Source: Pseudoflavonifractor sp. 60 (GTDB taxonomy: Bacteria > Bacillota > Clostridia > Oscillospirales > Oscillospiraceae). Taken from it: a stretch of 64,000 nucleotides of DNA. The translations under genes and the position numbers were made by a program. This document shows, in pieces, positions 60,956 to 61,659 of the stretch. Location of the stretch: contig NZ_QWKI01000001.1 of assembly GCF_009911645.1 (NCBI RefSeq), forward strand, positions 1 to 64,000, read 5' to 3'. Under the pieces are notes generated by a model. That model searched no databases. It had not been told where the DNA came from and saw only the letters and a program-made list of their open reading frames with translations. The first letter of the stretch is position 1; each line of letters starts with the position of its first letter.

Positions 60956-60992
60956 AAAACCGCCTCTGATTATTTTAGCAGAGGCGGTTTTC
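60956..60992 (+). terminator. dapB terminator
   Basis: AAAACCGCCTCTG and CAGAGGCGGTTTT pair around a 10-base loop, followed by CTCTCC. Confidence 0.9.
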
Positions 60993-61074
60993 TCTCCCTG
61001 CGTCAGCAAACTCTACGGAGCGGCGATTGCTTTTTCTTTGGAAATCCGTTATTCTCTTTCCAGGAGGTGAGGAC

Positions 61075-61659
61075 ATGGACCAAGTAAAAATTGGAAAGCT
61101 CATCCGCGCCCTGCGCACCCAGAAGGGGTTGACCCAAAAGGCTCTGGCTGAGGCTGTGGGTGTGGGCGACAAGGCGGTAAGCAAATGGGAGCGCGGCCTT
61201 GGCTGCCCGGACCTGTCCCTCCTTCCAGAACTGTCAAGGGCTCTGGATGTAGGACTGGAGGCGCTGCTCTCTGGCGAACTAGATGCCAATGGCCCGGAAA
61301 GAGGAAATATGAAGAAATTACACTTTTATGTATGTCCCCATTGCGGCAATTTTATAACTGCCGCCAGCGAGGCGAGCGTGACCTGCTGTGGAAAGACGCT
61401 CCACCCCTTAGAATCCCAGAAGGCTGCGGGAGAAGAAAAGCTGTCGGTAGAGAAAATCGACGACAGTTGGTTTCTCTCCTCTCCCCACCCCATGACAAAG
61501 GAGCACTATATTTCCTTTGCAGCCCTGCTCACAGGAGATACGCTGTTCCTGCGGCGTCTCTATCCTGAATGGGACTTTCAGACACGCATTCCCTGTCTTG
61601 GACATGGGAGCTTGTTGTGGTACTGCACCCGGCATAGGCTGTTCCAACAGAACATTTAG
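61075..61659 (+). CDS. XRE regulator fused to a desulfoferrodoxin-like module
   Basis: The 194-residue protein has an XRE helix-turn-helix (1-66; GVGDKAVSKWERG), a rubredoxin-like desulfoferrodoxin N-domain with C87, C90, C104, C105 (YVCPHCGNF, TCCGKTL), and a superoxide-reductase-like domain with HPMTKEHYI (H138, H144) and WYCTRHRLF (C184, H187). The first iron ligand normally seen in a KHVP motif is absent; the residues here are EEKLSV (around L123). It may sense oxygen or superoxide and may not catalyse reduction. ATG 61075 follows CAGGAGGTGAGGAC. Confidence 0.8.
   Translation: MDQVKIGKLIRALRTQKGLTQKALAEAVGVGDKAVSKWERGLGCPDLSLLPELSRALDVGLEALLSGELDANGPERGNMKKLHFYVCPHCGNFITAASEASVTCCGKTLHPLESQKAAGEEKLSVEKIDDSWFLSSPHPMTKEHYISFAALLTGDTLFLRRLYPEWDFQTRIPCLGHGSLLWYCTRHRLFQQNI

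Follow-up and report, generated by a model that had tools for sequence, protein, structure and literature searches.

The 64,000-nucleotide stretch of Pseudoflavonifractor sp. 60 DNA analysed here (hereafter 'the window') encodes a 194-amino-acid protein in which an XRE helix-turn-helix (HTH) domain is joined to a desulforedoxin and superoxide reductase (SOR) module, and which is a homologue of the desulfoferrodoxin superfamily. As read from sequence, this is a known fusion that has probably changed its role, here given a newly described operator and a set of candidate targets. There is a slightly better than even case that the protein acts as an autorepressor that uses a degenerate SOR as a redox or metal sensor, with its four-cysteine (Cys4) site as the sensing centre.

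Domain architecture and homology

The gene and the domains of its product lie in the window as follows:

61075..61659, forward strand: XRE–desulfoferrodoxin fusion, a putative regulator of 194 amino acids, stop codon included (ORF translation, profiles and model)
61075..61281, forward strand: XRE HTH domain, residues 1–69 (PF01381; structure match to P22 c2)
61312..61401, forward strand: desulforedoxin-like Cys4 domain, residues 80–109, with C87, C90, C104 and C105 in the pattern C-x2-C-x13-CC (phmmer, profile and alignment)
61435..61656, forward strand: degenerate SOR (centre II) domain, residues 121–194, with E121 in place of the first His and H138, H144, C184 and H187 present (alignment and structure match)

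A preliminary description of this DNA had proposed an HTH domain followed by both desulfoferrodoxin domains, and this architecture was recovered by the HTH_3 profile, by phmmer, by a profile search and in the AlphaFold2 fold. The residues that it had named (C87, C90, C104, C105, H138, H144, C184 and H187) all lie at those positions in the translation of 61075–61659. In a Pfam scan of the 194-residue protein, HTH_3 (PF01381) is matched with an E value of 2e-15 (57 bits against a cut-off of 23). A search with the Pfam desulfoferrodoxin families had been put forward as a check; both matches were found to be sub-threshold (PF06397, E 0.1; PF01880, E 0.15), and the C-terminal part searched alone matched no Pfam family at E 0.01. 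Within the protein family as a whole, PF01880 is matched by 19 and PF06397 by nine of the 35 scanned rows at the E 0.01 limit. Homology is evident by other routes: the NCBIfam desulfoferrodoxin model TIGR00320 matches with E 1.1e-7, which is below its curated cut-off, phmmer matches the protein to 1dfx with E 1e-8, and a profile built from 35 C-terminal family rows reaches desulfoferrodoxins in the PDB (2ji2, E 7.8e-13) over positions 2–113 of 116. An AlphaFold2 model of the fusion made from a 74-row alignment has a mean pLDDT of 92.2 and a pTM of 0.72. Modelled residues 78–194 superimpose on the Treponema pallidum SOR 1y07_D (Z 14.1, rmsd 2.1 over 114 residues) and on 1dfx (Z 13.1, rmsd 3.0), whilst residues 4–69 superimpose on the P22 c2 repressor 3jxb_D (Z 12.8).

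Variation of the metal ligands within the family

Conservation of the ligands was assessed in an alignment of 110 family rows, consisting of 80 named loci from a search for relatives and 30 loci from a search of 400 genomes, the latter including the window's own copy. The rows include two identical pairs (L010/L011 and L045/L115) and the incomplete copies L051, L067, L078 and L113; a tree was made from 108 rows, with L051 and L067 left out. The Cys4 site is nearly invariant: C87, C90 and C104 are each present in 110/110 rows and C105 in 108, and all four cysteines are found together in 108. In centre II, H138 is kept in all 110 rows, H144 in 105, C184 in 101 and H187 in 84. The position of the first SOR histidine, column 121, holds His in 54 rows, Glu in 30, Asp in 10, Gln in seven and other residues in nine. 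All five centre II ligands are retained in 44 rows, whereas 50 rows lack one of them and 16 lack at least two. The spacing of the ligands is more uniform, with x13 between the cysteine pairs and x16 from column 121 to H138 in 110/110 rows, and x39 to the centre II Cys in 105/110.

The preliminary description had held that the first active-site histidine is replaced near residue 123 (EEKLSV). The replacement is real, and its position has to be moved by two residues to E121, because the alignment places the first histidine of SORs in column 121, where 54 of the 110 rows have His. Retention of His by those same rows also means that its loss does not define the class: judging from the alignment, the loss is genuine but variable, set against a Cys4 site that hardly changes across the family. 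On the 108-row tree, with gains and losses counted alike, column 121 (His or not His) requires a minimum of 14 state changes, C184 six and H187 15, and the tree holds too few independent pairs for an analysis of ligand co-loss. H177 was considered as a ligand that might stand in for the missing histidine; by raw row counts, it is present in 35 of the 56 rows without H121 and in 17 of the 54 rows with it.

A second departure concerns the Glu-Lys-His motif that spans the first histidine in SORs, the lysine of which is catalytic. At this position the window protein reads G119-E120-E121, and across the family a lysine is found in column 120 in just 2/110 rows. All of the 20 canonical SORs compared, members of the same bacterial family, carry Glu-Lys-His together with the Cys4 pattern and CNLH, these controls having been chosen by profile match (E 2.9e-26 to 2.9e-18) in a manner that favours intact motifs. 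Enzymatic turnover is thus unlikely, since centre II varies and the catalytic lysine is missing. The same observations bear on the suggestion that the protein still works as a superoxide reductase and binds DNA in addition, for instance to protect the chromosome or to control its own amount. The SOR fold of the predicted model, the 44/110 rows with all five ligands and the lack of any SOR above the Pfam cut-off in the window's genome would be in keeping with such an enzyme, but the first His is replaced in the window protein, the lysine is present in only two rows, C184 and H187 are kept in 101/110 and 84/110, and about half of the carrier genomes (59/120) have a separate true SOR. We regard an active enzyme of this kind as highly improbable.

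The predicted operator and promoter

Upstream of the gene, the following elements were identified:

61010..61029, forward strand: predicted operator ACTCTACGGAGCGGCGATTG, with the left arm intact and the right arm reading CGGCG (family consensus palindrome YCTACG-NNN-CGTAGR)
61027..61032, forward strand: putative −35 element TTGCTT, weak, the first three bases of which are the last three of the operator (sequence; family logo)
61050..61055, forward strand: putative −10 element TATTCT, 17 nt past the −35 element (sequence; family logo)
61062..61067, forward strand: putative ribosome-binding site AGGAGG (by eye)

No promoter in the window reached the threshold of a generic promoter scan. The family supplies the pattern instead: the upstream consensus ACTCTACGNAGCGTNGRTTG holds the palindrome YCTACG-NNN-CGTAGR and ends with the TTG of the −35 box, and a TATAAT-like −10 element lies 17 nt beyond the −35 box in the family logo (drawn from the 101/106 upstreams that score at least 12 of 19). 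A search for palindromes upstream of this gene in related genomes, which had been put forward earlier as a check, thus finds one conserved over the −35 box. An operator score of at least 14 of 19 is reached by 90/105 upstreams of the family's own genes, compared with 7/681 other upstreams from the same loci and 4/5250 mononucleotide shuffles. These counts leave out L011, L067, L078, L115 and one further locus with less than 100 nt upstream, and the genes in both the upstream and the neighbourhood counts are those of a simple longest-frame caller. The consensus was drawn from those same upstreams, so that a more independent test is given by scans of whole genomes. In L048 and L050, two of the five upstreams scoring below 12 of 19, the site precedes an adjacent GIY-YIG-like gene instead, the regulator being the next gene on that strand, at distances of 47 and 164 nt.

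The overlap of an operator-like palindrome with the gene's own promoter suggests self-repression. Together with the missing lysine (K in 2/110 rows), this predicted operator lends support to the earlier view that the fusion would bind DNA and is probably a regulator and not an enzyme. A reading of the gene as a decayed pseudogene was rejected because the reading frame, the Cys4 site and the operator are all preserved.

Two further features were seen by eye in the same region. A GGAAA/TTTCC repeat surrounds the −10 element in the window, and a long inverted repeat, AAAACCGCCTCTG...CAGAGGCGGTTTT, lies at 60956–60991, directly past dapB, and is absent from the calls of the scan. The inverted repeat is probably the dapB terminator, and as such would part the regulator from the dap genes.

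Operator sites elsewhere and candidate targets

Whole-genome scans for exact TCTACGNNGCGTNGRTTG sites found 18 in the order (394 genomes), where the reversed pattern had none, and six in the class (291 genomes), where the reversed pattern had two; pooled, these are 23 distinct sites, one being common to both scans. Thirteen precede a family regulator, two a truncated XRE gene of this kind, three a CAT-like acetyltransferase, two an FMN-reductase-like flavoprotein and two a GIY-YIG-like gene, whilst one, as judged by eye, seems to fall within coding sequence. Looser scans gave a similar picture. In one, 30 of 33 sites were classified as 24 before the regulator, one before a GIY-YIG-like gene and five chance-like, against eight reversed-pattern matches. 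In the other, 29 of 48 sites precede the regulator, there were five reversed-pattern matches, and the 11 classified among the remaining 19 comprise three CAT-like genes, one GIY-YIG-like gene, one other XRE gene, one contig-end site and five coding or chance-like sites. The targets added by the looser scans are a CAT-like gene (genome G044), GIY-YIG-like genes (G132, and G768 from the window's genus) and a different XRE gene (G097). No SOR gene was found behind the operator among the classified sites.

The target labels differ in what they rest on. The G044 protein matches PF00302 (CAT) with E 1.3e-35, and the other three CAT-like proteins are alike by eye; the flavoprotein target of genome G733 matches PF03358 (FMN_red, the NADPH-dependent FMN reductase family) with E 1.2e-18. 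The flavoproteins behind exact sites carry CX2CX2CX7C, a form of the CX2CX2CX4-7C pattern that we take to be the motif of iron-sulfur flavoproteins. Proteins of that class reduce O2 and H2O2. The GIY-YIG label derives from a sub-threshold match to TIGR01453 (E 1.2e-5) by the protein of genome G1036, which shares 32% identity with that of G768. In G1036 the GIY-YIG-like gene comes first in a same-strand run, followed by a DUF2087 gene (PF09860, E 2.7e-27) and the regulator. Nine of the 10 genomes with CAT, flavoprotein or GIY-YIG targets carry the regulator (E 4e-39 or better), as against at least 120/400 genomes in the bacterial family; the corresponding binomial value of 1.4e-4 is only indicative, because two same-genus pairs are among the ten genomes, five of the ten come from outside the bacterial family of the window and the G1036 run is operon-like. 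The regulator match in genome G082 covers query residues 38–191, in an open frame without the first 37 residues. Taken together, the presence of the same site before CAT-like, FMN-reductase-like and GIY-YIG-like genes of relatives suggests a candidate regulon that includes a few genes of a defence type.

In G097 the site stands ahead of an XRE gene of another kind, so other XRE proteins may use the operator. It is quite improbable, in our estimation, that the operator chiefly serves XRE paralogues whose recognition helix is similar, with the fusion as just one user among several or of minor importance. Such sharing would account for G097, for the CAT-like gene L178 in genome G150, which has a perfect operator in a genome where no copy of the regulator was found, and for the retention of the site by the two truncated XRE genes. 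It sits poorly with the 13/23 exact sites that precede the family's own genes, with the site in 90/105 family upstreams and with the 9/10 genomes with non-self targets that hold the regulator.

The nature of the targets also bears on what the protein senses. The targets found in relatives appear to fit a detoxification response, which by itself does not prove a redox signal, and the Cys4 site could equally hold zinc. The main rival to the redox reading is accordingly a xenobiotic-binding repressor: the same autorepressor, with Cys4 as a structural zinc ribbon and with a small molecule (an antibiotic, a quinone or another xenobiotic) bound in the old SOR barrel as the signal, and no direct redox step. 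CAT-family (PF00302) and FMN reductase (PF03358) targets fit a xenobiotic response, the centre II ligands vary, and a few zinc-binding or zinc-ribbon profiles are matched, each weakly and by 1/35 family rows. Against this, the adjacent CC and the homology of the whole module point to desulfoferrodoxin, and the retention of H138 in 110/110 rows and of four or five centre II ligands in 94/110 is more than a bare scaffold seems to need. We therefore hold the zinc-based reading to be rather unlikely, if still a serious competitor to a sensor that works through redox or metal.

In the window's own genome, no further site within one mismatch was found beyond the gene's own, and no second target; allowing up to three mismatches yields 22 matches, and the reversed pattern yields 17. 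The sole two-mismatch match resembles a CRISPR repeat. It is the second of two 27-nt repeats ending GCGTGGATTGAAA that occur on contig C240 of this genome (L190:97–123 and 1985–2011) and that have the look of CRISPR repeats. A homologue of the GIY-YIG-like protein was not found in this genome either (best E 0.995). Other sites were noted in passing. The truncated XRE genes with perfect operators, L193 in G688 and L195 in G579, break off within a few codons at the same point (after KWERG or KWETG), and each of these genomes holds another copy of the module elsewhere. In L014, GCTCTACGGAGCGTCGGAGG lies about 127 nt before a small gene (MKTIQELEQYLEENCYNF...) that precedes the regulator and may be a further target, and in G182 a second operator-like site (C45:18406–18423) lies upstream of the one that belongs to the regulator, at a distance of about 2.3 kb. 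In viral contigs, at least 120 stretches with the operator pattern were found.

Distribution and genomic context

The regulator was found in at least 120 of 400 sampled genomes of the bacterial family, a lower bound obtained with eight candidates scored per genome and including two genomes with partial matches. A wider search returned 578 relatives, which may include HTH-only matches and are not taken as the family size. By record titles, the family is frequent in Clostridia and occurs also in Coriobacteria, Treponema and a few Bacilli. Among phage and plasmid records (E up to 1e-15), relatives were found in one phage record and two 'plasmid' records, one of which is 2.6 Mb long. The phage record, from human faeces, encodes a relative that is 45% identical over 98% of the query (MT835563.1:21715–22296).

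Gene neighbourhood was considered as a clue to function and set aside, there being no conserved neighbour. The largest neighbour cluster is present at nine of the 87 loci (of 110) in which the caller kept the family gene, and corresponds to the gene downstream in the window, which we take to be 'tcdA-type'. A role as the regulator of a true SOR was likewise rejected: an SOR is present in 59/120 carriers and in 124/280 non-carriers (p 0.38).

Proposed mechanism

We infer that the protein is a free-standing transcription factor, in which a dimer of the XRE domain would bind the palindrome at 61010–61029. From the position of the site, the bound dimer would cover the −35 box and so block the gene's own promoter, resulting in negative autoregulation. 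The C-terminal desulfoferrodoxin module would be a retired enzyme reused as a sensor. In desulfoferrodoxin the Dx Cys4 site binds iron, according to the SORGOdb paper (PMC3116461). Cys4, most likely as Fe(Cys)4, is favoured here as the conserved sensing centre because it is the most constrained site and binds iron in desulfoferrodoxin, while centre II varies. The old superoxide-reducing site would then be a variable second site, with Glu for the first His in the window protein. Oxidation or loss of the metal may alter the module and cause the DNA to be released, upon which the level of the regulator itself would rise; in relatives, release would also raise expression of the CAT-like, FMN-reductase-like flavoprotein and GIY-YIG-like genes. 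More tentatively, the proteins may make up a redox-repressor family that arose from a recruited SOR, with Fe(Cys)4 as the switch and the old active site left free to vary between His, Glu, Asp and Gln.

We know of no earlier transcription factor for which sensing by a desulforedoxin-type Fe(Cys)4 centre has been shown. If the redox reading is correct, this would be the first, equipped with a defined operator and with a detoxification regulon that is small and portable, and would offer a possible oxygen or redox sensor for gut anaerobes. It would also be a case of an enzyme converted to a sensor in which several stages of the change at the active site can still be seen, and the annotation of genes in at least 120/400 sampled genomes of the bacterial family would be corrected. 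With an operator predicted, both the binding of DNA and its release are open to direct test.

Comparison with known systems

The fusion had been presented in the preliminary description as a distinct and unrecorded class. The architecture is in fact known, because SORGOdb (2011, PMC3116461) defines an HTH-Dx-SOR class of 19 proteins, filed there among the superoxide reductases. Like these, the window protein carries its HTH at the N-terminus, ahead of the desulforedoxin and SOR modules. It differs from the motif CXXCX15CC given there in its cysteine spacing, which is x13 in the window protein and in 110/110 family rows, and the filing as enzymes is at odds with its incomplete centre II and the absence of the Glu-Lys-His lysine. 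In the open-access literature, with most subscription journals outside its scope, no paper was found, as far as the accessible texts go, that treats the HTH-Dx-SOR fusion as a regulator or names its operator.

Several regulators were considered as the known version of this protein and rejected on the accessible parts of their papers. OseR is Spx-like, TrtA has 104 residues and a function after residue 81 that its authors could not predict, and the paper on Xtr of Clostridioides difficile gives, in those parts, no sign of a desulfoferrodoxin domain and nowhere uses that word. OseR and PerR of C. difficile resemble the proposed regulator in being repressors of oxygen or peroxide defence in a clostridial species (PMC11481553, PMC11980386). 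Unlike it, they belong by description to other families, Spx/YusI for OseR and metal-dependent histidine oxidation for PerR, with no desulfoferrodoxin domain mentioned in the passages available (PMC11481553, PMC11980386).

A parallel in design is provided by the XRE-cupin regulators and the HTH-cupin enzyme HppE, in which an XRE domain is likewise fused to a beta-barrel with a metal site; fusions of this kind may thus serve as regulators or as enzymes. The barrel is of a different family from that of the window protein, and the structure matches cover the HTH part (residues 1–72).

The module itself is most like desulfoferrodoxin or 2Fe-SOR (1dfx, Desulfoarculus baarsii 2ji1 and C. difficile Sor), with which it shares the two-domain fold and order, Cys4 and four of the five centre II ligands. 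The matched desulfoferrodoxin PDB chains have no HTH, which the fusion does. Whilst an SOR centre II has four His and one Cys, the window protein has E121, although 44/110 family rows do conform. The published SOR signature, (E)(K)H(x)19-27H(x)5H(x)40-63C(x)2H (PMC11980386), is broken in the window protein by E121, by x16 to the second His and by x39 to the Cys.
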